From Microbacteriaceae bacterium VKM Ac-2854 (GTDB taxonomy: Bacteria > Actinomycetota > Actinomycetes > Actinomycetales > Microbacteriaceae): DNA of 64,000 nt. Below, piece by piece: positions 2,977 to 55,739 of this stretch. The notes beneath the pieces were generated by a model that saw nothing but the letters and a program-made list of their open reading frames with translations, had not been told where the DNA came from and searched no databases. The position numbers and the translations under genes were made by a program. Every line of letters begins with the position of its first letter. Position 1 is the stretch's first letter. The stretch lies in NCBI GenBank assembly GCA_013205085.1, contig JABMLH010000002.1, positions 375,425-439,424 on the forward strand, in the 5' to 3' direction.

Positions 2977-4486
2977 CGACGGCCTCCGTTCCGACGACCA
3001 GGTCTTCCCACAATTCGCGGGCGTAGTCCTCCCAGCTGCGCTGCGGGCGCGCGGACGCCTCCGCCTTCAGCTCTGCGATGCGCTCGTCGGAATCCAGCAG
3101 TTCGCGCATGGCGGCGATGATCTCCTCGTCGTCTCCAGGATCGACGGTGATGCAACCGCCGTCGCTCGCGATCTCCGCGAGCGAGCCGAGCGAGGACGTG
3201 ATCACCGGCACGCCGAGCGCGAGCGCCTCGGCGACGGGCAGTCCGTAGCCCTCGTGCGTCGAGGGGAAGACCAGGAACCGGGCGTTCTCGTACGAGGCGA
3301 CCAGCTTCTCGTCACTCGCTCCGCGCCACAGTTCGACCGATCGGCCGTTGGCCTGGGCCGCGCGGATCCGCTTGTCGAAGACGCGGGTCGACCAGTCGTT
3401 GCCGCCGCCGATGAAGCGCAGCGTGAACCGCTTGCCCTCCCGCCAGAGCACCTCGGATGCGTGCAGGACCGCGAGGTGGTTCTTGCGCGGCTCGGTGCTG
3501 CCGACGCAGAGCACCAGCGGCAGACCGTCCGCCGGCGCACCGAGGGACGGATCCACCTGCTTGGGCATGTCGACCGGCAGGGAGACCGTCGCGACGCTCG
3601 GACCGAGCAGGCCCTGAGCGGGCAGCGACTCGACGATGCCGTGGAACTCCGACGAGGCGGCTTCGCTGATGCCGGCCACGCGGTCGGCGTGCTTCACGAT
3701 CGCGAGGTAGTTGACGAAGCGGGCCGTCTCGACTCCGGGAACCGTATCGGCGCTGACGACCGGGATCGCGTCGTAGCCGATCAGGCTGACGGAGTTGCCG
3801 GAGTACTCGGCCAGCGCCGCCAGCGGGCCGCACTGGTTGAAGTTGGGCACCTCGGGGAGGACGACGGTCGAGCGGAACGGTACGACGAACTCGGTCACTT
3901 CCGGCAAGCCGGTCTCCCACTCGCGCTTGGACGCGGTCGGGTAGTCGATGACCCGCTCCAGCTCGATATCGCTGAGTCGACGCATCGACATGGAGCCGTG
4001 CACCCAGGCCACCGGGACCACATCGTGGTCGCGGTACCAGCGCGACATCGTCTGGCGCACAACACGCTGGATGCCGGTCTGGTGCGCGTGACGCGCGCAG
4101 AAGTCGACGTCGACCACCACGGCGTCCGTGACGACCTGCAGCTTCGCCGTCAGATCCGCGTATCCGGAATTCGCCCGGGTGCCGGCGAAGAGGAACAGCT
4201 TCATGGCCTCGTCCGGCTCGCAGAGTTCGAGGGCACGGCGGAACCAGAGGAAGAGGTGCGGGACGGGGAACACCGCGAGGAAGGCGGTGAGCGCGAGCCA
4301 CGTCGTGTCATCGGAGGCGCGGGCCTTGGTCGCCCGGGCCACCGCATCCAGCAGGGGGCCGGCTCCGCGCTCGCGCAGTTCGGCGATCCGCGCCGGATCG
4401 TCGATCACGAACGGGGCGATGGCCTCGAGCCGCTGCATCAGGAAGGCGCGCCGCACCTCGGGCGCTGGCATGGTCTTGCGCTTCAC
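2969..4486 (-). CDS. Glycosyltransferase family 4 with N-terminal extension (tandem paralogue)
   Basis: A 505-aa GT4 enzyme with a helical N-terminal region of about 110 residues, then TGIQRVVRQTMS, LCVGSTEPRKNHLAVLH and THEGYGLPVAEALALGVPVI. It starts at GTG 4486 in a GTGA overlap with the upstream small gene, indicating translational coupling. A second possible start, ATG at 4471, would shorten it by five residues. It probably adds a sugar to the same surface polymer as its neighbour. The paralogues have diverged, which suggests successive different linkages rather than redundancy. Confidence 0.87.
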   Translation of the reverse strand: MKRKTMPAPEVRRAFLMQRLEAIAPFVIDDPARIAELRERGAGPLLDAVARATKARASDDTTWLALTAFLAVFPVPHLFLWFRRALELCEPDEAMKLFLFAGTRANSGYADLTAKLQVVTDAVVVDVDFCARHAHQTGIQRVVRQTMSRWYRDHDVVPVAWVHGSMSMRRLSDIELERVIDYPTASKREWETGLPEVTEFVVPFRSTVVLPEVPNFNQCGPLAALAEYSGNSVSLIGYDAIPVVSADTVPGVETARFVNYLAIVKHADRVAGISEAASSEFHGIVESLPAQGLLGPSVATVSLPVDMPKQVDPSLGAPADGLPLVLCVGSTEPRKNHLAVLHASEVLWREGKRFTLRFIGGGNDWSTRVFDKRIRAAQANGRSVELWRGASDEKLVASYENARFLVFPSTHEGYGLPVAEALALGVPVITSSLGSLAEIASDGGCITVDPGDDEEIIAAMRELLDSDERIAELKAEASARPQRSWEDYARELWEDLVVGTEAVDA

Positions 4487-4791
4487 CGACGGCGCCCCAG
4501 ACGACGACGGGCGTATCGCATCGAGTGCGCGACCGCGGTGCCGAAGCCGAGTTGACCCACGCGGATCTGGAAGGTGCGCACCGCGCGCAGCGGCTTGGTG
4601 ATGCGCCAGGAGATGGTGCTCTCGAACTCGGCGGCCGAGCCGCCGACGTACATGTTCTCGACCCAGGAATCGAGCGGGTCGTTCAGGAGCTGGTCGATCC
4701 GCGCCCGTAATTCGGCGACGGATTCCGTCCCGCTCGTCGCTTCGACGGGGGTGTCCGAGGGGCGGGGAGTGGGAGAGGGTTCTGCTGGCAC
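4483..4791 (-). CDS. Small protein of unknown function in the glycan operon
   Basis: A 102-aa product with a Pro/Thr/Ser-rich N-terminus, a short predicted helix (VAELRARIDQLLND), a segment with WRITKPLRAVRTFQIR, and a very basic end (RYARRRLGRRR). The W-R-I-T-x-P-L-R pattern recurs near the ends of many wall-polymer glycosyltransferases, so this may be a membrane-surface adaptor or a detached piece of such an enzyme. A TAAGAT -10-like box (4803-4798) sits 6 nt before the GTG, and the stop overlaps the next start, so it is probably a real gene. I do not recognise a family. Confidence 0.6.
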   Translation of the reverse strand: MPAEPSPTPRPSDTPVEATSGTESVAELRARIDQLLNDPLDSWVENMYVGGSAAEFESTISWRITKPLRAVRTFQIRVGQLGFGTAVAHSMRYARRRLGRRR

Positions 4792-44591: not shown

Positions 44592-45422
44592 ATGTCTGAC
44601 GCACTGAACCCCCTCGACGCCGCGGATGCGAATCCGTTCGAGATCGCGAAGCTCGCCGCCGAGCAGATCGCCGACAAGACGGGCGTTCCCCGACACGACA
44701 TCGCTCTCACGCTCGGGAGCGGCTGGGGCAAAGCGGCCGACCTGATCGGTGAGACCACGGCGGTCATCCCTGCGACCGAGATCGTCGGATTCTCCAAGCC
44801 CGCCCTCGAAGGCCACGTCGGCACCCTCCGATCCGTGCTGCTGCCCTCGGGCAAGCGCGCCCTCGTGATCGGCGCCCGCACGCACTACTACGAGGGCCAC
44901 GGCACCCGCCGGGTCGCGCACAGCGTCCGCACCGCCGCGGCGACCGGCGCGACGGTGATGGTGCTGACCAACGGCGCCGGCGGCATCAAGCCGCACTGGC
45001 AGGGCGGCACCCCGGTGCTGATCAGCGACCACATCAACCTCACCGCCGACTCACCCCTCGAAGGCGCCACCTTCATCGACCTGACCGACCTCTACTCGAC
45101 CCGACTGCGCGAGCTCGCGCGCAGCGTCGATCCGAGCCTCGACGAGGGCGTCTACGTACAGTTCCGCGGCCCGCACTACGAGACCCCCGCTGAGGTGCAG
45201 ATGGCTAAGGCCATCGGCGGCCACATCGTCGGCATGTCCACGGCGTTGGAGGCCATCGCCGCCCGCGAGGCCGGGATGGAGATCCTCGGCATGTCGCTGA
45301 TCACCAACCTCGCCGCCGGCATCCAGACCACTCCGCTCAGCCACGCCGAGGTGATCGAGGCCGGGCAGAACGCCGAGGGCGCGATCTCGTCGCTGCTGGC
45401 GAAGATCGTGGCCGAGCTGTGA
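44592..45422 (+). CDS. Purine nucleoside phosphorylase
   Basis: 276 aa, trimeric PNP class. It has LTLGSGWGKAADLIG (phosphate Ser), GARTHYYEGHGTRRVAHSVR, LTNGAGGIKPHWQGGTPVLISDHIN, FRGPHYETPAEV and GMSTALEAIAAREAGME. It splits purine nucleosides with phosphate to base and (deoxy)ribose-1-phosphate. Its stop lies in a GTGA overlap with the phosphomutase gene, which can use that sugar phosphate. Confidence 0.94.
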   Translation: MSDALNPLDAADANPFEIAKLAAEQIADKTGVPRHDIALTLGSGWGKAADLIGETTAVIPATEIVGFSKPALEGHVGTLRSVLLPSGKRALVIGARTHYYEGHGTRRVAHSVRTAAATGATVMVLTNGAGGIKPHWQGGTPVLISDHINLTADSPLEGATFIDLTDLYSTRLRELARSVDPSLDEGVYVQFRGPHYETPAEVQMAKAIGGHIVGMSTALEAIAAREAGMEILGMSLITNLAAGIQTTPLSHAEVIEAGQNAEGAISSLLAKIVAEL

Positions 45423-47092
45423 GCGCGCAGCTGTTCGCGACGGCACGCGACTGGCGCGATCAGGATCCGGACGCCGAGACGCGCGCCGAGGTCGACGCCC
45501 TGCTCGCGCGCGCCGAGGCCGCCGATGCCGACGCCGTCGCCGAGCTGCACGACCGCTTCGACACCCGACTCGCCTTCGGCACCGCCGGCCTGCGCGGCGC
45601 GATCGAGGCCGGCTCGAACCGGATGAACCGGGTGCTGGTCTCGCAAGCCGCGGTCGGTCTGGCCGACTTCCTGCTCGCCCAGGCGGGCGCCGGCGAGAAG
45701 CCCCTCGTCGTGATCGGCTACGACGGCCGCAAGAACTCGCGGATCTTCGCCGAGGACTCCGCGGCTCTCATCGCCGGCGCCGGCGCGAGCGCCATCCTGC
45801 TGCCCCGGCTGCTGCCGACTCCGGTACTCGCCTTCGCCGTGCGCTACTTCGCCGCCGACGCCGGCGTTATGGTCACCGCCAGCCATAATCCGCCCAACGA
45901 CAACGGCTACAAGGTCTACCTCGGCGGCGCGGATCAGGGCTCGCAGATCGTCGCGCCCGTGGACGCCGAGATCGCGGCGCGGATCCTCACCGTGGCGCAG
46001 CAGCGTCGGGTGACCGAGCTGCCTCGCGGCGCCTACGACGTGGCCGACGAGGCCGTCGTCGACGCCTACGTCAGCGCGACCGCGGCGGCCGGGCGCCCCT
46101 TCGCCGCGCTCGACACCGTGTACACCGCGATGCACGGCGTCGGCTGGGAGACGGCTCGCCGGGTCTACGAGAGCGCCGGCTTCGCTCTGCCCGCCACGGT
46201 CGACGCGCAGATCGCGCCCGACCCCGCCTTCCCGACCGTCGCCTTCCCCAATCCCGAGGAGAAGGGAGCGATGGACCTCGCCTTCGCGACGGCGCGCGCA
46301 CACGGGGCCGAGCTGATCATCGCGAACGACCCGGACGCGGATCGCCTCGCGATCGCGATCCCGGACGACGCAGCGGCCGAGGGCTATCGCCGACTCACCG
46401 GCAACGAGGTCGGCGCGCTGCTGGGCTGGCGCGCGGCCGAGATCGCGACGGCGACGGGGCGCAGCGACGGCGCGCTCGCCTGCTCGATCGTGTCGTCACC
46501 GGCCCTCGGCGCCGTCGCCGCGGCCTACGGCCTCGACTGGGTGGAGACGCTCACCGGATTCAAGTGGATCTCGCGCGCGCCGGGGTTGATCTTCGGCTAC
46601 GAGGAGGCGTTGGGCTACCTGGTGAATCCGGGTACCGTGCGGGATAAGGACGGCATCTCCGCCTCGGTGGCCTTCCTCTCGCTCGCCGGCTGGCTGAAGT
46701 CGGAGGGTCGCACCGTCGCGGATCACCTCGATGCGTTCAGCGCGAAGTTCGGCCACTACGCCTCCGACCAGATCTCCGTCCGGGTCACCGATCTCTCGCG
46801 CATCGACGCGATCATGGCCGGCCTACGCGCCGCGCTACCGGAGGAGGTCGGCGGGGTGCCGGTGCAGTCCGTCGACGATCTGGTCGACGGCACGGGGGTG
46901 CTCGCCCCGACGGATGCCCTGCGGTTCCATTTCGACGGCGCGCGGATGATCGTGCGGCCCAGCGGCACGGAACCCAAGCTCAAGATCTACCTCGACGCCT
47001 GGTCGGCCGAGGGCGATCTCGCCCAGCGCACCGCGACCGCGACCGCGCGCCTGGATCTGCTCCGAGCCGGCACCGCCGCCTTCCTCGGCTGA
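45419..47092 (+). CDS. Phosphosugar mutase (phosphopentomutase/PGM2-like)
   Basis: 557 aa of the alpha-D-phosphohexomutase superfamily. It shows GTAGLRGAIEAGSNRMN, the phospho-Ser loop VTASHNPPNDNGYKVYLGG, metal loop ANDPDADRLAIAIP, sugar loop GYEEALGYLVNPG and phosphate loop VRPSGTEPKLKIYLDAW. The length and GYEEALGY motif fit the PGM2/PgcA branch, some members of which act on ribose- or deoxyribose-1-phosphate. Translational coupling to the nucleoside phosphorylase favours phosphopentomutase activity; phosphoglucomutase or phosphomannomutase activity is the alternative. Confidence 0.88.
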   Translation: MSAQLFATARDWRDQDPDAETRAEVDALLARAEAADADAVAELHDRFDTRLAFGTAGLRGAIEAGSNRMNRVLVSQAAVGLADFLLAQAGAGEKPLVVIGYDGRKNSRIFAEDSAALIAGAGASAILLPRLLPTPVLAFAVRYFAADAGVMVTASHNPPNDNGYKVYLGGADQGSQIVAPVDAEIAARILTVAQQRRVTELPRGAYDVADEAVVDAYVSATAAAGRPFAALDTVYTAMHGVGWETARRVYESAGFALPATVDAQIAPDPAFPTVAFPNPEEKGAMDLAFATARAHGAELIIANDPDADRLAIAIPDDAAAEGYRRLTGNEVGALLGWRAAEIATATGRSDGALACSIVSSPALGAVAAAYGLDWVETLTGFKWISRAPGLIFGYEEALGYLVNPGTVRDKDGISASVAFLSLAGWLKSEGRTVADHLDAFSAKFGHYASDQISVRVTDLSRIDAIMAGLRAALPEEVGGVPVQSVDDLVDGTGVLAPTDALRFHFDGARMIVRPSGTEPKLKIYLDAWSAEGDLAQRTATATARLDLLRAGTAAFLG

Positions 47093-47180
47093 GCGGCGGC
47101 CGTCTTAGCACGGACGCCGGCAATCGAGCAATATTCCGACTCGTCTCACTCCGAAGGGGGGTTGTCGCCGGACCGGCGCC

Positions 47181-47186
47181 TAAGCT
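47181..47186 (+). promoter_or_regulatory. -10-like box (TAAGCT)
   Basis: TAAGCT lies 33 nt before the first exported-protein gene at 47220, which has its own AGGGGG ribosome site. Confidence 0.4.
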
Positions 47187-47219
47187 CGTCTGCATGCTGT
47201 TCGTAGCGAGGGGGCGCCG

Positions 47220-48686
47220 ATGACGGACGAGTCCGAACAGGGTCCCCGCAGCCCCGCGATCGGCCGCCGGGCGGTCGCCGGCGGGATCGGCGCGGCCGGC
47301 TTGAGCGCCGCCGTCGCTCCCGCCGCCTGGGCCGCCCCCGGCGTCCGCAGCATCACGAGGGCTCCGGCGGTGGCGGGTTCCGGCACGGTTTCGCTCCCCG
47401 ACCTCGCCGCCTTCGCCTTCGTCGGTCGCCAGGAGCTGCCCGCGTCGGCGAACGGCGCCGGCGAGACCATCCCGGCGAGCGTGAGCGTGACGAACGTCTC
47501 CGGCGCACTGCTCGCCTCCGGCTACCGCTTCTTCGTCGAGCACAGCCACGCGGGGGTCAACTACTCGGTGCAGCCGCGCCGTTCCGCCGCCGGCGCCGAA
47601 CGCAACGGCTCGCCCGACCCCGGCCTGGTCGGCAACGCGAGCAACGGCGAGTACGTCGACAACGCGTTCACCACCGCCGCCGCCCTCGTCGCCGGTGAGA
47701 CGATCACCCTGCCCCTGGTCGCGACGATGCTGCCGTTCCCGTCCGACGCCGAGCCGGGCGAGGTCACGGCCGGCCCGATCACGGCGGACGGGCGCCTGGT
47801 TCTCGCCCGTGCCGACACCGAGGTCAGGGTGGGCGACCGCACGGCCTACGACATCGATCTCACCTTCCGCGGCAGCCAGGAGACGTTCCCAACGGATGCC
47901 GGTGTGCAGGCCACGGTGCCGGCCGCCGCCGTCGTCCGCAACGGCCCCGCCTATCCGCCCGGCACCGTCGGCCCGGTACCCGCCGACACCCTGATCTGGA
48001 TCAGTGCCCTCGACGGCGGTTTCGACCTCAGCCGCGCCTCGGGCCCCGATCTCCCCGTCGGAACCTCGGTGAGCGATCTCGTCTACGAGTACCGACTCCC
48101 GTCGGAGCTGGAGCAGGGCGTCGAGGTCGTCCTGCCCCTCGTGGTGCGGATGAACGCGACGCAGGCGGCCGCTCGCCCTCGCTCCATCACCGTGACCGCG
48201 GTGTCGCCGGAGGCCGAGGAGGACCAACCCAACAACGCCGTGACCGCGAGCTACGAGACGGTACAGAAGGAGCACGCCTGGTACTCCGCGAGCCTCGGCT
48301 ACGTCGGCTCCCGCGACGCGCGCAGCGACATCTGGACCGCCACCGAATTCCCGGTGGCTCTCGAGATCCGCAACAGCAGCACGGAGGACGTACCGCTGCA
48401 TCCACTTCTCGTCGGCACCCGGTTCAGCCTGAGCTCGGGCGGATCGCTGGACCTCGCGGCCGCCACCCTCGACGGGGTCCCGGCCCCCGAGCTCCTGCTG
48501 GCGCGATACGCCTCCTTCGAGCTGACCCGCGCGCTGGAGCCGGGCGCCGTGATCAGCATCCCGACACTGGACACCTTCGACGTCAACGCCCGCACGGTGA
48601 GCTGCGCCATGCTGAACGGCTTCTACGACCAGCTGGATCGGCGCACGGCCAGCGCGACGCGGCGATACGGCCTGATCCTGGGCTGA
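47220..48686 (+). CDS. Exported RR-signal protein, array member 1
   Basis: 488 aa. The N-terminus has GRRAVAGGIGAAGLSAAVAP and a cleavage site near AWA-APG, a Tat-like signal peptide. The mature part is Ala/Val/Thr-rich and strand-like. Repeated segments such as PASVSVTNVSGALL, ITVTAVSPEAEEDQPNNAV and FPVALEIRNSSTEDVPL resemble DUF11/CARDB-type Ig-like modules. No catalytic motif, LPxTG or C-terminal membrane span is seen. It is the most diverged of five tandem relatives and lacks the GRD-x4-NN ending of the others. Confidence 0.68.
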   Translation: MTDESEQGPRSPAIGRRAVAGGIGAAGLSAAVAPAAWAAPGVRSITRAPAVAGSGTVSLPDLAAFAFVGRQELPASANGAGETIPASVSVTNVSGALLASGYRFFVEHSHAGVNYSVQPRRSAAGAERNGSPDPGLVGNASNGEYVDNAFTTAAALVAGETITLPLVATMLPFPSDAEPGEVTAGPITADGRLVLARADTEVRVGDRTAYDIDLTFRGSQETFPTDAGVQATVPAAAVVRNGPAYPPGTVGPVPADTLIWISALDGGFDLSRASGPDLPVGTSVSDLVYEYRLPSELEQGVEVVLPLVVRMNATQAAARPRSITVTAVSPEAEEDQPNNAVTASYETVQKEHAWYSASLGYVGSRDARSDIWTATEFPVALEIRNSSTEDVPLHPLLVGTRFSLSSGGSLDLAAATLDGVPAPELLLARYASFELTRALEPGAVISIPTLDTFDVNARTVSCAMLNGFYDQLDRRTASATRRYGLILG

Positions 48687-48737
48687 GTGCCGCAACGATA
48701 CGGAGCTGAGCCAAGGTCATCGAACGAGGGGCAGACC

Positions 48738-50198
48738 GTGATCGACCCGAACCGCACCGAGCCCGACTCTCCGAACGAGCAGAACGGAGCATCGCGCCGA
48801 CTGCTGGTCGGAACCGCGGCTCTGGTCGCGGCCGCCGGAGCGACGACGGCGGTCTCCACACCGGCCGGGGCCTGGGCGGCCCCCGCGGTGAAGCAGATCC
48901 TCGGCCTGCCGGGCGCCGCCGCGTCCACGGGCGCTCTCGCCCGCGTGAGCTTCGACGGCAGCCAGTCCCCCAGTAACGCGGCCGGCACGAGTGTCGCCCT
49001 GCCCGCAGTGGTGGTTCTCGCGAACGTCGGCAGCGCCGTCACCATTCCGGCGGGGAGCACGGTCACGACCACACTCTCGTACGACGGCTTCTCGCTCGTC
49101 TTCGATCGCCCGGCGTCGGCAGCGGCCGCGACACTCGATGGCGCTCCGATCCCGGGTGCCGTGGTGGCGACCGGATCGTCGTTCACCCTGCTCCTGGACC
49201 TCGCCCCGGATTCGATCGTGCGCATCCCGCTCGTCGTCACCGTGGCGGAACGGGTCGTCACCGCCACCCCCGGCGTCGCCCGCGCGAGCTATCAGCTCGT
49301 CGTGGCGGATGCCTCACCCGTTGCCGACCGCAGTGCAGAGGCGGCGACCACGATCAGCGGACCCATGTCGGCACCGAGCTACTACGAGTTCGCGTTCGAG
49401 GGCACTCGGCAGACCGCCCCGAGCCCGTCAGGCAAGGTCTACGACTACCCGGCGTACTTCACTGTGCGGCGCGGTCCGGACGCGGATCCGTACAACACCA
49501 CGTCAGTCTCCATCTGGATCGGGGCGGGCCATCCGTGGGTCCACTTCTTCGGCGCCCCCGAACGTAACGGGGTCGTCGATGATTCAGCGGGCAGCTGGGA
49601 CCCGGAGTCCCGGTTCAGCCTCGATGAGTACATCGTGGTCAAGCTCCCGCTCGCACCGGGCGACGTCCTCGCCTTCCCGTATTACATCCTCTCGGCCGCG
49701 GAGTGGACGCCGAACGCCAATGGTGGAGTTCTCGCGAGAGCTTCCGGAGGCCAAACGACCATCGCCTCCGCGACCGGCGCGATATCGCCGACCGTGCCGT
49801 ACACCGGAACCTTCGACGCCGCGATCGGCTACGGCGGACCGGCGCCCGCGCTGCCGACCGACGTCATCATCAGGTCGCTGGGCACCGGGCCGGTGCCGGT
49901 GGGGATGGTCGCCGACACCCCGCTGAGTTACAGCTCCTTCACGTTGAGCGCCATCGGCACGGCGAGCGTGGACGGCGTTCCGGTTCCCGATGCCGTTGTG
50001 CTGTGCTCCGTGCCGAACAACACGTACGCGCGCCACAAGATCCTGACGACGGTGGCCGTTCCGACAGGAAGCGTCCTCACCGTGCCCCTGGTCTGGCGCG
50101 GCCTCCCGAGGGATCTCTCCGAGATCACGACCACCCTCGTCACCGTCGGCCGGGATGCGGTCTCCGGCAACAACAGCGTCACTCGGGCTCTGAACTGA
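48738..50198 (+). CDS. Exported RR-signal protein, array member 2
   Basis: 486 aa from GTG 48738, preceded by GAGGGG. Signal region GASRRLLVGTAALVAAAG, cleavage near AWA-APAV, then KQILGLPGAAAS. Three beta-rich modules can be drawn: ~60-195 (ARVSFDGSQSPSNAAGTS to ASPVADRS), ~205-340 (YYEFAFEGTRQTAPSPSG) and ~350-486 (TGTFDAAIGYGG to VTVGRDAVSGNNS). Members 2-5 share these landmarks. Function unknown; a secreted structural or adhesive role is the simplest guess. Confidence 0.7.
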   Translation: MIDPNRTEPDSPNEQNGASRRLLVGTAALVAAAGATTAVSTPAGAWAAPAVKQILGLPGAAASTGALARVSFDGSQSPSNAAGTSVALPAVVVLANVGSAVTIPAGSTVTTTLSYDGFSLVFDRPASAAAATLDGAPIPGAVVATGSSFTLLLDLAPDSIVRIPLVVTVAERVVTATPGVARASYQLVVADASPVADRSAEAATTISGPMSAPSYYEFAFEGTRQTAPSPSGKVYDYPAYFTVRRGPDADPYNTTSVSIWIGAGHPWVHFFGAPERNGVVDDSAGSWDPESRFSLDEYIVVKLPLAPGDVLAFPYYILSAAEWTPNANGGVLARASGGQTTIASATGAISPTVPYTGTFDAAIGYGGPAPALPTDVIIRSLGTGPVPVGMVADTPLSYSSFTLSAIGTASVDGVPVPDAVVLCSVPNNTYARHKILTTVAVPTGSVLTVPLVWRGLPRDLSEITTTLVTVGRDAVSGNNSVTRALN

Positions 50199-50206
50199 CC
50201 CGTCGA

Positions 50207-50236
50207 TTGCCGGAGTCTCGCGTTCGCCGCTAGGCT
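50207..50236 (+). promoter_or_regulatory. Promoter of array member 3
   Basis: TTGCCG (50207-50212), 18-nt spacer and TAGGCT (50231-50236) lie 40 nt before GTG 50276, so this member has its own promoter. Confidence 0.55.
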
Positions 50237-50275
50237 CTCGACCCGAGCCGACGTCATCATTCTTGGGGGCACACT

Positions 50276-51742
50276 GTGACGAACCCGAACCTTCCCGAAT
50301 CCGAGAACGCCGACGAACGGGCCGGCACCTCCCGCCGCCTCCTCGTCGGCACCGCCGGCCTGGTCGCGGCCGCGGGCCTGACCGCGACCGTCGCCTCGCC
50401 GGCCGGCGCGTGGGCGGCGCCCGCCGTCAAGCAGATCCTCGGGCTGCCCCGATCGTCTGCGTCGGGCACCGTCAGCGCCCGGGTCCGTTTCGACGGCACC
50501 CAGACGGTGTCGAACGCCAGCGGCACCTCCGTCACCCTGCCGTCGTCGATCGTCTTCACGAACACGTCGCCGAGCAGCACCATCCCGGCCGGCGCGGCGA
50601 TCGCCCTCATCGTGGGCTACGAGGGCCGGGCACTGATCCTCGATCGGGAGGCCTCCGCCACCGCCGCGCAGGTCAACGGCGTCGTTGATGCCGGCCAGGT
50701 GATCGTGGCCGGCAGCCGATTCGTGGTGCAGCTCGCCCTCGAACCCGGCGCCACCGTGGTCGTTCCGATCCTTGCGACGGCGATGCCGATGATCCCGGCG
50801 CTCGGCGACTCGACGGCCCAGACCGCGTACGAGATCAGCGGGGCGGACGAGTCGCCGGTCCAGGATCGAACGGACGAGGCCGTCACGACCATCAGCGATC
50901 CCGCGGGCGACCCCGTGTACTACGACATCTCGTTCCGCGGTACGCGCCGCACGGCCCCCAGCGCGTCCGGCGCGAGCTGGGACTATCCGGCCTTCCTCAC
51001 GATCACGCGCGGACCGCAGCCGCACCCGAACGACATCGACGGATCGTTCACCCTCAGCGTCTCGACGGCGGTCCCGTTCCAGATCGGCGGCGCCACGCCG
51101 ACCCTGAACGGAGTCGAGGACGCCGGTGCCGGCGTCTGGGCGGGCGATCCGCGCAACGACACGCCGCGATCCTTCACCGTCCAGCTTCCCCTGGCCGAGG
51201 GCGATGTCGTCGAATTCCCCCTCTACGCCGTGGACGCGAAGGACGCGACGGGGAACTGGTCGGGGGCGTACACCGTGACCCTCGAGAACTGGAGCGTCAG
51301 CGACGGCCCGGCGCCGACCGCGACCACCACGATCACCCCCGCAGGCTCGACCGCCGAGTTCTTCGACGCCGCCCTGACCTTCACCGGCACCGGCTCGGGA
51401 ACCCGCTCGCTCCCGGCGACGCTCGAGATCGCCGCGACGAACGCCGAGCCGGTGCCCGTCGGCACGGTCGTGCGGATGCCGATCGACTATCGTGCGCCGC
51501 TGCTGACGAGCGTCGGACCGGCGACCATCAACGGCAGCACCACCCCCGACGCCGTCGCCGTTGTGCTCGACGCCGCGTACGAACTCAACGTCTGGAACAT
51601 CGTCACCCGAGCCGAAGTCCCGGCGGGGGCCGCGATGTCGATCCCGTTGAGCTGGCGGGGCACGAGTTCGTCGAAGGTCACCGCGACCCTCGTCACGACT
51701 GGTCGCGACGCGGACCTGCGCAACAACAGCGCTACGAACTGA
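50276..51742 (+). CDS. Exported RR-signal protein, array member 3
   Basis: 488 aa, GTG start after GGGGGC. It has TSRRLLVGTAGLVAAAGL, AWAAPAVKQILGLPRSS, module 1 ARVRFDGTQTVSNASGTS to DESPVQDRTD, module 2 YYDISFRGTRRTAPSASGASWDYPA, and module 3 FFDAALTFTGTGSG to VTTGRDADLRNNSATN. It is close to members 2, 4 and 5 in layout, with many substitutions in the loops. No cysteines stand out and no enzyme motif is visible. Confidence 0.7.
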   Translation: MTNPNLPESENADERAGTSRRLLVGTAGLVAAAGLTATVASPAGAWAAPAVKQILGLPRSSASGTVSARVRFDGTQTVSNASGTSVTLPSSIVFTNTSPSSTIPAGAAIALIVGYEGRALILDREASATAAQVNGVVDAGQVIVAGSRFVVQLALEPGATVVVPILATAMPMIPALGDSTAQTAYEISGADESPVQDRTDEAVTTISDPAGDPVYYDISFRGTRRTAPSASGASWDYPAFLTITRGPQPHPNDIDGSFTLSVSTAVPFQIGGATPTLNGVEDAGAGVWAGDPRNDTPRSFTVQLPLAEGDVVEFPLYAVDAKDATGNWSGAYTVTLENWSVSDGPAPTATTTITPAGSTAEFFDAALTFTGTGSGTRSLPATLEIAATNAEPVPVGTVVRMPIDYRAPLLTSVGPATINGSTTPDAVAVVLDAAYELNVWNIVTRAEVPAGAAMSIPLSWRGTSSSKVTATLVTTGRDADLRNNSATN

Positions 51743-51944
51743 GCGATCCGTCCGACCGCGCGCAGCGTGGAACCGACAGCGGTCGAGTCGCCGTTCCGGA
51801 TGCCGTCGAGGCCACGGGCGACAGCCCCTCCTGACGCGCACCGCACTCCGGGCCGGACGAGATGGAGTGTCTCACTCCCCCTCTGGGGCCGCGCGTTCTC
51901 CACTAAAGTCGGCAGCACCCTTCCCGCCGCGTCCGAGGAGAACC

Positions 51945-53483
51945 ATGCCCGAGCTGCCCGAGCACGATTCCCGATCCACCTCGCCGGTCGAATCCCGGGA
52001 CACCGCGCAGGGTCCGCCGCGGCGACTGCTCGTCGGCGCAACGGCCGCCGTCGGTGCGGCCGGAGCGATCACGGCGATCGGCGGCCCGGCTGAAGCGTGG
52101 GCGGCACCGGCGGTTCGACAGATCCTCGGCGTGCCGGGCGCCGCAGCATCGACTACCGCGGTCACCGCCCGGATCCGGTTCGAGGGCGAGCAGACGGTGT
52201 CGAACGCGGCGGGGACCCTGGTCACGCTGCCGGCGTCGATCGTGCTGCTGAACACCAGCACCGACGTCACCTTCGCCAGCGGAGCGTTGATCTTCCTGGA
52301 GCTCACGTACGCGAGGAACGTGCTGACGCTCGATCGTGAAGCGTCGGCATCGGCCGCGACGATCGACGGCGCCGCCGCACCGGGCGCGATCGCCGCCGAC
52401 GGGGAGCTCTTCGTCCTTCTCGTGCCGCTGCAGCCGGGGTCGTCCATCGTCATCCCGATCGTCGCCTCCGTTCGCGAACGCGTGACGTCCTCCGTGAACG
52501 GCGTGGCGAATATCACGTACACGCACGACGTCCCGATCGATGCACCGGTCGAGGACCGCAGCGACACCGCAGTCACGACGATTGCGAATCCGAGTCCCGA
52601 CCTCGCGCACTTCGAGTTGGGTTTTCGCGGAACGCGCAGCACCGCGCCCGATTCCCAGGGTCGGACCTACGATTTCCCCGAGTTCTTCACCGTGACGCGA
52701 ACCGCGGCGGGAATCGAACAGGGTGTGACGAGCCTGTACGTGGCGGTTACATCAGCGGACTTCCCGTTCGCGATCGGCGCGACCGATCCGCTGCTGGACG
52801 GCGTCGCCGCCGACGTCGGAAGCTGGTACGCGGGAGGTCAGCGCTGGGCCGAAGAGCCCTACTTCGCAGCCACGTTCCCACAGGATTCCGAGGGGGTCAT
52901 CGAGTTCCCGCTCTACGCCCTCGACGTGCAGGACGACCCGTGGCCCGGGTGGACCGGCGAGTTCACCCTCACGGCGACGTCGAGCACGGCGACCACGAGC
53001 GCAACGACGACGGTGACGATCGGCACCCCGAGGACGACCCCCTTCGATGCGGGGGTCGCGTTGAGCGGCTCTCTCGATTACGCCGGTGTGGGCGGACTGC
53101 CGACGCAGCTGCACCTCACTGCGGTCGGCACCGCGAGCGTTCCGAGCGGGACCGTGCTCATCATGCGACGCAGCTGGGCGACCTACTCGAGACTGACCGG
53201 TATCGGTACCGTGACCGTGGACGGTGCGCCCGCGCCCGAAGCGCTGGTCTTCATCGATGCGCCCGGCGCCTACGAGTCGTACATCCATCGCTTCGTGCTG
53301 CGCAACGATGTGCCGGCGGGCCGGCAGCTCACCATCCCCCTGCAGTGGATCGAGCAGCAAGCCGCGCCGGGCAACTCGGAGGAGGCGACGATCGTGTCGC
53401 TGGTGACCGCCGGTCGCGACAGCGACTCGACCAACAACACGGCGTCGCAGCCGTTCAGCTACGTCGGACCGCCCATCGGCTGA
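51945..53483 (+). CDS. Exported RR-signal protein, array member 4
   Basis: 512 aa from ATG 51945, preceded by GAGGAG. It has PPRRLLVGATAAVGAAGA, AWAAPAVRQILGVPGAAAS, ARIRFEGEQTVSNAAGT, FELGFRGTRSTAPDSQGRTYDFPE, and the end SLVTAGRDSDSTNNTASQ. A -10-like TAAAGT at 51904-51909 suggests separate transcription. It is followed by a fragment of the PTS IIB gene at 53507-53661, which marks a duplication event. Confidence 0.7.
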   Translation: MPELPEHDSRSTSPVESRDTAQGPPRRLLVGATAAVGAAGAITAIGGPAEAWAAPAVRQILGVPGAAASTTAVTARIRFEGEQTVSNAAGTLVTLPASIVLLNTSTDVTFASGALIFLELTYARNVLTLDREASASAATIDGAAAPGAIAADGELFVLLVPLQPGSSIVIPIVASVRERVTSSVNGVANITYTHDVPIDAPVEDRSDTAVTTIANPSPDLAHFELGFRGTRSTAPDSQGRTYDFPEFFTVTRTAAGIEQGVTSLYVAVTSADFPFAIGATDPLLDGVAADVGSWYAGGQRWAEEPYFAATFPQDSEGVIEFPLYALDVQDDPWPGWTGEFTLTATSSTATTSATTTVTIGTPRTTPFDAGVALSGSLDYAGVGGLPTQLHLTAVGTASVPSGTVLIMRRSWATYSRLTGIGTVTVDGAPAPEALVFIDAPGAYESYIHRFVLRNDVPAGRQLTIPLQWIEQQAAPGNSEEATIVSLVTAGRDSDSTNNTASQPFSYVGPPIG

Positions 53484-53506
53484 GTCGTCGGCGAGCCGGG
53501 CGGCGA

Positions 53507-53661
53507 TCAGCCGATCGCGGCCTCGATCTCCGCGGTGATCTCGGTCTGGTCGAGGGAGTTGTCGATCACAACGATCGACGCGTCGGTCTTACCGATCGTG
53601 TCGACGAGCTCGGACGAGGTCAGGATCACCTGCGCGTCGGCGGCCACGGCGTCGACCGAGT
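53507..53661 (-). pseudogene. Truncated copy of the PTS IIB gene (C-terminal part)
   Basis: The segment 53501-53661 matches 55318-55478, the 3' part of the intact IIB gene, with about six substitutions in 161 bp and no indel. It still reads the last ~50 codons in frame, including AADAQVILTSSELVD and the stop, but has no start or Cys active site. Homology stops abruptly at 53661. It is a remnant left by duplication of an exported-protein gene plus its neighbour. Confidence 0.88.
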
Positions 53662-53710
53662 GAGCGGTCCGGCTGACCGCGTCGCATCAGGCAACGCAAC
53701 GATCGCCGCT

Positions 53711-53740
53711 TTGACGGGGCCAGGTCCCGCGCGATACGGT
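53711..53740 (+). promoter_or_regulatory. Promoter of array member 5
   Basis: TTGACG (53711-53716), 18-nt spacer and TACGGT (53735-53740) lie 34 nt before ATG 53775. Confidence 0.6.
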
Positions 53741-53774
53741 GCACCCGAGCCACTGTCATCTTCTGGGGGAAACC

Positions 53775-55274
53775 ATGACCGCGTCGGAGCACACTCGTCC
53801 CGAACCCGACGAGCGGATCACGCCGTCGGATCCGTCGCGCCGCCTCCTGGTCGGGGCAGCGGCTGCCGTCGGAGCGGCCGGCGCCGTCGCGCTCGTCGGC
53901 ACTCCGGCCGGCGCTTGGGCCGCCCCTGCCGTCACGCAGATCTTCGGGCTGCCAGGAGCCGCTGCGTCCGGAGCGTCGGGGCTTCTCGCCCGCGTCCGCT
54001 TCGACGGCAGCCAGACCGTGACGAACGGCGCCGGAGCCGCGGTGACACTCCCCGCTCGGATCGTGTTCGCGAATGTCGGCACCGAAGTCGCCATCCCGGC
54101 CGGCGCTACGATCGGCCTCTCGCTCAGCTACGAGGGCACGGCGCTCACGGTCGATCGGAGCGCGTCCGCCGCTGCGGCCTCGATCAACGGAGTGGTGTCC
54201 GCCGGGGCCGTGATCGTCGCCGGTTCGAACTTCATCGTTCAGCTCGGACTCGATGCCGGTGCGGTCGTGACGATCCCGATCGTCGCGACGGCGACGGATC
54301 GAGTCCCCGCACTCGCCGAGGGCACGGCCCGCACGAGCTATGCCGTCTCCGCCTCCGATTCCTCGCCCGCAGCGGATCGCAGCGACAGCGTCTCGACCTC
54401 GATCACGGGCGGCAGCACCGCGCCGGCGTACGAGGCCACGTTCCACGGCTCGCGCCGCACCGCGCCCGGCGCGTCGGGAGCGACGTGGGACTATCCGGAG
54501 TTCCTCTCGGTGAAGCGTCTCGTCGACGACTCGGTCGACGATGGTGCGACGGAGCTTCAGCTGCATGTCGTCCGGGATCGATTCCCGTTCGGCCTCAGCG
54601 CCATCGAGGCCACCCTCGACGGCGTGCCGACGACCCGATCGAGGTCCGTTCCAGGGGGTCGGGATTCGGACCCGTACTACAGCGTCGGGCTACCGCTGGC
54701 GAAAGGCTCAGTCGTCGAGTTCCGCCTCGCGGCGCTTTCCGGGCCCGGCGACGACCCGACGGCGAACGGGGAGTACCGGCTGATCGAGTCGTACGATCCG
54801 GATAACCCCGGTGTGACCGCCACCACGACCGTAACGCGGGGCCCGCAGTACACCGAGCTGTTCGATGCGGCCATCGCGCTGACGGGCAGCATGCCGTACA
54901 CGGTTCCGTTCTACGGAATCGAGTGGGTGCCCACCGCACTGACCCTCACGGCCACGACTGGCGTCGCGATTCCGGCCGGCTCGGTGATCACGACGCACTC
55001 CTTCTACAATGCAAGTTATGGGGCGGCCAGCATCGGCGGCGTCGCCGTGCCGGACGCCTTCGACGTCACGGACGTCAACGACTACCGGTACGACTTGTCC
55101 GAGGCAATCATCCTCCGCGTCGAGGTACCAGCGAACTCCAGTCTCACCATTCCACTCGAGTGGGCGGAGTACGAGGGTGGACCGATGTACGACCTCACCG
55201 TCGAGCTGAAGACCGACGGTCGCGACTCGGATCGGCGCAACAATACGGCGGTCGCGAAGATCAGCACGTTCTGA
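53775..55274 (+). CDS. Exported RR-signal protein, array member 5
   Basis: 499 aa from ATG 53775 after GGGGGAAA. It has PSRRLLVGAAAAVGAAGAVA, AWAAPAVTQIFGLPGAAASG, ARVRFDGSQTVTNGAG, YEATFHGSRRTAPGASGATWDYPE and the end LKTDGRDSDRRNNTAVAK. Its position between a IIB fragment and the intact IIB gene indicates that it arose as a tandem copy. Same three-module layout as members 2-4; function unknown. Confidence 0.7.
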   Translation: MTASEHTRPEPDERITPSDPSRRLLVGAAAAVGAAGAVALVGTPAGAWAAPAVTQIFGLPGAAASGASGLLARVRFDGSQTVTNGAGAAVTLPARIVFANVGTEVAIPAGATIGLSLSYEGTALTVDRSASAAAASINGVVSAGAVIVAGSNFIVQLGLDAGAVVTIPIVATATDRVPALAEGTARTSYAVSASDSSPAADRSDSVSTSITGGSTAPAYEATFHGSRRTAPGASGATWDYPEFLSVKRLVDDSVDDGATELQLHVVRDRFPFGLSAIEATLDGVPTTRSRSVPGGRDSDPYYSVGLPLAKGSVVEFRLAALSGPGDDPTANGEYRLIESYDPDNPGVTATTTVTRGPQYTELFDAAIALTGSMPYTVPFYGIEWVPTALTLTATTGVAIPAGSVITTHSFYNASYGAASIGGVAVPDAFDVTDVNDYRYDLSEAIILRVEVPANSSLTIPLEWAEYEGGPMYDLTVELKTDGRDSDRRNNTAVAKISTF

Positions 55275-55323
55275 TCACGCTCGACCCGGGATCGGGCACC
55301 GGAGAAGCCGACTCGTTCGGCGA

Positions 55324-55596
55324 TCAGCCGATCGCGGCCTCGATCTTCGCGGTGATCTCGGTCTGGTCGAGGTAGTTGTCGATCACAACGATCGACGCGT
55401 TGGTCTTACCGATCTTGTCGACGAGCTCGGATGAGGTCAGGATCACCTGCGCATCGGCGGCCACGGCGTCGACCGAGTCGAGGTCGGAGGCGATCACGTC
55501 GGCCTCGAGGTCGAGCGCGTCGAGCGCGCGTTCGGCCCCGAGCTTCAGGATCGCGGAGGTGCCGATGCCGGCTCCGCAGATGGCGACGATCTTCAT
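55324..55596 (-). CDS. PTS sugar transporter subunit IIB
   Basis: 90 aa. It begins MKIVAICGAGIGTSAILK, the P-loop of the lactose/ascorbate-type IIB fold with phospho-Cys7, and ends YLDQTEITAKIEAAIG. It would accept phosphate from IIA and pass it to a sugar in the IIC channel. It follows the IIA gene by 143 bp. No IIC gene occurs in the window. A truncated copy lies at 53507-53661. Confidence 0.87.
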   Translation of the reverse strand: MKIVAICGAGIGTSAILKLGAERALDALDLEADVIASDLDSVDAVAADAQVILTSSELVDKIGKTNASIVVIDNYLDQTEITAKIEAAIG

Positions 55597-55739
55597 GGTG
55601 GTACTCCCTGCATCCGCGGGACCCGGCACGTCCCGTCCGTCAACGGTAGCGCGCGCGGGGCGCCGAGCGCCTGGCGACGGGGACTTCTGCACCGATGTGC
55701 GCAGAAGAGTTGTCGTTTCGACCACGACGACCGCCGGGA

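Follow-up and report, generated by a model that had tools for sequence, protein, structure and literature searches.

Five related genes follow one another on the plus strand at positions 47220-55274 of the window, i.e., the whole 64,000-nucleotide stretch from Microbacteriaceae bacterium VKM Ac-2854 analysed in this work. This array lies between a phosphomannomutase/phosphoglucomutase gene (pmm) and the IIB gene of a phosphotransferase system (PTS; Table 1). We describe its predicted exported products, its probable arrival in the pmm-IIB gap and a block of residues that links its signal region to a wider class of N-terminal signals.

Five genes with a twin-arginine signal

As an initial sequence-only reading had proposed, the genes encode proteins of about 490-510 residues. 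We find 486-512 residues, lengths that depend on the start codons chosen in this analysis; for gene 2, an in-frame GTG upstream at 48687 would extend the product to 503 residues. The third-position GC content of the array genes (84-92%) resembles that of six neighbouring genes (87-93%), and they hence appear to be genuine coding sequence of this chromosome. The products of genes 2, 4 and 5 share 43, 40 and 46% identity with that of gene 3, more than expected by chance, and gene 1 is an outlier with only 23-28% identity to the other four members.

A twin arginine is found at residue 16-26 in all five proteins, in the n-region ahead of a hydrophobic stretch. The signal motifs RRLLVG and AWAAPAV were described as conserved throughout the array, which holds for four of the five members each: genes 2-5 feature [SP]RRLLVG, whereas gene 1 reads GRRAVAG and AWAAPGV. 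The genome contains one TatC component of the twin-arginine translocation (Tat) system (E 3.4e-58, above the curated cut-off). No LPxT[GA] motif is present in any of the five proteins. The best 19-residue hydropathy mean within the last 60 residues ranges from 0.24 to 1.61, values that leave no clear C-terminal membrane anchor. The only cysteines are residue 462 in gene 1 and residue 423 in gene 2, and none of the five proteins has a cysteine near the signal. Four of the five end in the expected GRD-x4-NN tail, 4-14 residues from the C-terminus.

The sequence-only reading had seen neither anchor nor enzyme motif, and it had named a place in a characterised family as an outcome that would speak against it. 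Pfam yielded no credible family for the five proteins, nor a CARDB or DUF11 match at E up to 1, and NCBIfam no match at E up to 1; no enzyme family was among the results. Two Pfam matches below the cut-off, Caudal_act (gene 3, E 0.056) and Acanthaporin (gene 4, E 0.11), were set aside as chance, and a sequence search of the PDB with gene 3 gave as best match, at E 0.15, a designed isomerase, which was discarded. Separate -35/-10 promoters had been suggested for members 3 and 5. Our scan for sites of the sigma-70-like type in 46900-55700 found none (shuffles: mean 0.5), and this suggestion was thus not borne out.

From the signal and the modelled folds described below, the array proteins probably are Tat-exported surface or matrix components. 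Of the four steps that we propose for the system, Tat export in the folded state with cleavage near AWA-AP is the one in which we would place most confidence. Second in confidence, the proteins might remain extracellular as soluble or loosely bound components of the surface or matrix, where the modules could bind one another, a polymer or the surface of a host, with copies differing in ligand.

Homologous modules of predicted beta-sandwich fold

Each protein comprises three modules that are homologous to one another (hhalign probability 94% for modules 1 and 2, 96% for modules 1 and 3, 71% for modules 2 and 3). A single module, modelled with an alignment of the 15 modules, is a predicted beta-sandwich with a predicted local distance difference test score (pLDDT) of 84.3 and a predicted template modelling score of 0.81, in agreement with the three immunoglobulin-like modules originally noted. 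In per-domain alignments the modules match adhesin, pilin, BslA and integrin domains; the matched integrin stretches are presumably calf domains. Foldseek searches with the whole-protein model gave 23 PDB rows at E up to 0.001, the best being an integrin (3.4e-6), with root-mean-square deviations of 15.6-34.4 Å, and five BFVD rows at E up to 0.001 with 24-52 Å. These whole-model rows were set aside for their poor superposition in favour of the per-domain alignments.

Beta-sandwich domains of Gram-positive adhesins and pilins (SdrD/SdrG/ClfA type, SpaD, RrgB, EbpB, BcpA) are among the closest known systems. In contrast to these sortase-anchored proteins, those of the array feature no LPxTG, no clear hydrophobic tail and no credible Pfam match, and the product of gene 4, which is devoid of lysine, could not form the Lys-Asn isopeptide bond of pilins. 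The CARDB- and DUF11-type repeats of Pfam also belong to these closest systems, yet neither Pfam model is matched. Also among the closest is TTHA1873 of Thermus thermophilus (7wrk, 7wwn, 7wwo); however, its chain has 158-160 residues and 14-15% identity, and it is described just as a hypothetical protein.

The sequence-only reading held that loops diverge more than the frame. With strands assigned from the low-confidence whole-protein model, the mean pairwise identity over all modules of genes 2-5 is 39.9% at strand residues versus 40.0% at other residues, and the claim does not stand overall. Module 2 alone leans that way (39.1 versus 30.8%; 11 of 139 shifted controls as large), and module 3 behaves in the opposite way (34.3 versus 41.9%).

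The pmm-IIB gap and the probable import of the array

Among 15 genomes of the genus, only the window's own contains the array; in G009, there is merely a 50-position match in the signal region. In the nearest relative, G010, with a pmm 83% identical, the site is closed: pmm, IIB, IIA and the adenosine deaminase gene (add) adjoin without the array, and 97 bp separate the ends of IIB and pmm. The pmm-add distance, calculated from the matched coordinates of both genes, amounts to 776-1430 bp in nine of the other 14 genus members, a distance that IIA and IIB would nearly fill, and to 2.6-6.3 kb in the remaining five. No array-like gene was seen at the locus in the nine genus members read, where the site is closed or otherwise occupied, nor in three members of other genera. 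The gap of G011 contains a hydrolase, a chitin-binding-module protein, a DUF418 protein and a TetR regulator. Since the loci read differ in content (L025-L029, L031), different species hold different genes in this gap. By reading alone, the gaps at L025-L027 and L029 seem to contain parts of the G011 gene set. G020, which belongs to another genus, has a PhoD-like phosphatase at this position.

To the right of the array, PTS IIB is followed by PTS IIA and add, and a nucleoside hydrolase is also a neighbour. With pmm, these genes might suggest that the array encodes enzymes or binding subunits of an adjoining PTS/nucleoside salvage cluster. We regard this as highly improbable, as G010 keeps pmm, IIB, IIA and add together without the array, G011 and G020 hold unrelated genes in the gap, and the array proteins match no enzyme family.

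Between genes 4 and 5, the terminal ~52 codons of PTS IIB and its stop are repeated on the minus strand. The copy is identical to positions 55318-55482 at 158 of 165 positions (96%), and to the IIB gene of G010 at 138 of 164 (84%). Broken off and presumably free to drift, yet 96% identical, it points to a recent joining event. Genes 4 and 5 are at chance at fourfold-degenerate sites (about 40%), whereas G000-G010 orthologs retain 52-63% identity. Judged by this coarse clock, gene 5 was hardly copied from gene 4 in that duplication. The simplest account would be that two chromosomes, with different members adjacent to the same IIB gene, recombined unequally. Accepting it, either gene 5 or genes 1-4 would have been brought in by this exchange, and turnover of the array between strains would follow; this is third in confidence among our four steps.

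Relatives outside the array are few. In 199 genomes, a module profile recovered all 15 array modules and one more place in the own genome; elsewhere, 12 genomes each gave a single weak match (E 1.8e-5 to 0.009). On the same contig as the array, about 94 kb away, lies a distant sixth paralog (387 residues; L036:6504-7667), beside an open reading frame (ORF) that we take to be rsmI. Furthermore, there are four scattered relatives that bear the signal, one in the own genome and three in other genomes of the bacterial family. In a profile of these four, the mature part matched that of the array with 94.0% probability (E 1.5e-7, 122 columns), and shuffled profiles gave E 0.16 or worse in 20 of 20 controls. 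The array therefore appears to be the expanded branch of a larger family that is only sparsely distributed. A translated search of plasmids and phages with gene 3 (tblastn) gave no match, none of 52 pattern matches in viral contigs was confirmed, and no relative was confirmed among 250 pattern matches in named genomes. Partial matches, to the signal region or to one module stretch, were not counted as array members, and a family that does not appear in the VIA-align lists is not thereby excluded.

Taken together, we favour, with a probability of roughly 60%, the view that these exported beta-sandwich proteins with three modules form a lineage-specific tandem family, whose genes were already diverged when imported into the pmm-IIB gap and which was enlarged by recombination. 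Alternatively, the family might be old, formed at this site through ancient tandem duplication and later lost in the sampled sister species, with the IIB-tail copy a minor, later event kept alike by gene conversion. The synonymous saturation of the paralogs and the distant sixth member 94 kb away agree with such a history. It would, however, demand many losses, given 14 other genus genomes without the array and a closed site in the nearest relative, and the presumably unconstrained IIB-tail copy is at 96% to the window's IIB but only at 84% to that of G010. We therefore consider an old family unlikely.

Several points weigh against import of a diverged family. The absence of the array from the 14 other genus members sampled could be explained equally well by repeated loss, and gene conversion could have kept the IIB-tail copy alike. 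The ortholog identity of 52-63% at fourfold sites is itself near chance, which makes the age comparison coarse. The searches beyond the genus found no full-length match outside the own genome in 398 family, 396 order and 396 phylum genomes, samples that overlap, were scored for three candidates per genome and stem from a collection with one searchable genome per species. At the protein level, the whole-protein model also consists of predicted beta-sandwiches, with a weak pLDDT of 58.6; a sandwich fold in common shows no function; and loops are no more variable than strands overall, which disfavours variation of an antigenic type. For the variable surface or matrix family envisaged in the sequence-only reading, fold and export signal thus fit, and variability exists at the level of the locus (presence in one of 15 genomes, site content, IIB tail), but not at that of the loops. 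That reading's observations are in this way partly confirmed and its interpretation partly supported.

Table 1. Positions of the array genes, their signal blocks and adjoining features in the window
Feature	Position	Strand	Remarks
pmm	45419..47092	+	phosphomannomutase/phosphoglucomutase gene; left neighbour of the array
Gene 1	47220..48686	+	488 residues; most divergent member; RRAVAG, AWAAPGV; without GRD tail
Gene 2	48738..50198	+	486 residues; start GTG 48738
Gene 3	50276..51742	+	488 residues
Gene 4	51945..53483	+	512 residues; without lysine
Gene 5	53775..55274	+	499 residues
PTS IIB gene	55324..55596	-	right neighbour of the array
Second copy of PTS IIB tail	53501..53664	-	last ~52 codons and stop; putative recombination joint of genes 4 and 5
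Module 1 of gene 3	50474..50890	+	residues 67-205; module folded alone
Module 2 of gene 3	50918..51337	+	residues 215-354
Module 3 of gene 3	51368..51739	+	residues 365-488; ends in GRD-x4-NN
W-x2-P-x8-P-x4-S block, gene 1	47328..47381	+	WAAPGVRSITRAPAVAGS
W-x2-P-x8-P-x4-S block, gene 2	48873..48926	+	WAAPAVKQILGLPGAAAS
W-x2-P-x8-P-x4-S block, gene 3	50411..50464	+	WAAPAVKQILGLPRSSAS
W-x2-P-x8-P-x4-S block, gene 4	52098..52151	+	WAAPAVRQILGVPGAAAS
W-x2-P-x8-P-x4-S block, gene 5	53916..53969	+	WAAPAVTQIFGLPGAAAS

The W-P-P-S block and a wider signal class

Past the signal core, each of the five array proteins, like the sixth paralog, shows the exact spacing W-x2-P-x8-P-x4-S. Mean identity among genes 2-5 is 69.4% in the signal region versus 47, 35 and 38% in the modules, and fourfold-degenerate sites are at chance (~40%) in all regions. 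Hence, the signals are alike through constraint and not through recent copying; recent gene conversion as the cause was rejected on the same ground.

The block leads to a large, patchy class of N-terminal signals of the form RR-x7-W-x2-P-x8-P-x-A-x-A-S, with conserved residues beyond the needs of a generic export signal and with diverse mature parts. Profile A4, built from the scattered relatives and the sixth paralog (five sequences, L064 among them without the W block), found 39 matching places in the own genome, and each of the 14 other genus members had 5-23; in most places among the matches listed, only the signal was aligned. From the fetched loci, 48 distinct class signals were then taken by a pattern that imposes RR or RK, A or G plus a small residue before W, W itself, the first P and the two residues after it, which leaves S, the later A positions and the second P as the only independent evidence. 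The second P (W+12) and S (W+17), neither of them imposed, are invariant in 48 of 48. Identity among the 31 signals from the own genome is 62%, and their fourfold sites are at chance level. Fetched ORFs outside the 48 training signals contained 36 W-P-P-S matches, versus 4.2 expected by shuffling. Of ten class members, three carry RCC1 repeats according to Pfam and the others no credible family, and NCBIfam gave no match for the ten at E up to 0.1.

With profile A5, the class signal turned up in 21 of the 199 family genomes searched, the own one counted, and these belong to 14 of 85 genera. The own genome has at least 37 such places and G086 at least 38; copy numbers are lower bounds, with up to 38 candidates scored per genome in the family and up to 25 in the phylum. 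In the phylum, the signal was found in two of 296 genomes, the own included, and some may be missed. The class is thus patchily distributed across the family and high-copy in some genomes.

Array and class differ in the distance between twin arginine and W: 7 residues in the class signals, 24 in four array proteins (genes 2-5) and 19 in the remaining one, gene 1, as in the sixth paralog. A hidden Markov model of the class listed, among the array proteins, only gene 4, in the W-to-S part and without significance (E 0.075, 9.5 bits). The array signal may be read as a derived form in which a new hydrophobic core lies upstream of the retained block.

As a concept, the wider class resembles the PEP-CTERM/EpsH system, with its short homology block, many copies in some genomes, none in most, and diverse mature parts (PMC1569441). 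The resemblance is one of analogy only: the PEP-CTERM signal is C-terminal, belongs to outer-membrane bacteria and has EpsH as proposed cognate (PMC1569441), whereas the W-P-P-S block is N-terminal and no cognate was found.

The array proteins had also been proposed as substrates of one dedicated partner. The block and the selection on the signals provide a lead in this direction, but no candidate enzyme was found. Tentatively, the block could be the recognition site of a dedicated sorting or processing machinery, and the proteins would be fixed in the envelope or trimmed. The two unimposed invariant residues, the constrained 31 own-genome signals, the exact spacing in array and sixth paralog, and the patchy, high-copy distribution of the class would all be in agreement with this. 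Besides the missing enzyme, the deviating RR-W gaps and the one weak listing of an array protein by the class model speak against it, and a lineage-specific habit of ordinary Tat or Sec signals could look alike. The stricter form, drawn by analogy, is slightly more doubtful still: W-x2-P-x8-P-x-A-x-A-S might be an N-terminal sorting or processing signal for undiscovered machinery, a counterpart of the PEP-CTERM/exosortase principle, with the block itself forming the hydrophobic core in the ordinary class, and a new core upstream of a partly polar, retained block in the array. If true, the block would be read in its own right, during or after translocation, and the array would represent surface proteins sorted by it. 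Likewise, the last of our four steps, in which we have least confidence, holds that the block would be kept because something at the membrane reads it.

The import of a diverged array, as favoured above, would provide a concrete case of exported-protein genes that arrived ready-diverged and recombined in a gap of the chromosome where the joint can still be read. Systems of this kind are familiar, but we know of none that combines the import of ready-diverged genes with a readable joint and a detached N-terminal block, and the literature, screened by titles and abstract openings, yielded no such array or signal class.

Class genes were seen at the own-genome loci L077, L078, L080 and L081, among others, and L036 contains, in addition to the sixth paralog, a class-type ORF of 152 residues at 4322-4780. 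At L079:3548-4839, between two class genes, a LuxR-type regulator accompanies a 202-residue ORF without Pfam match. No AraC-type regulator was found in the window. Elsewhere, such regulators lie within 2 kb of 13 of 34 own-genome class ORFs, a count made without background control and with some ORFs over-extended. They stand beside class genes at L077, L080 and L089 in the own genome, at L095 in G013 and at L093 in G001, where six class ORFs occur with six AraC-type regulators.
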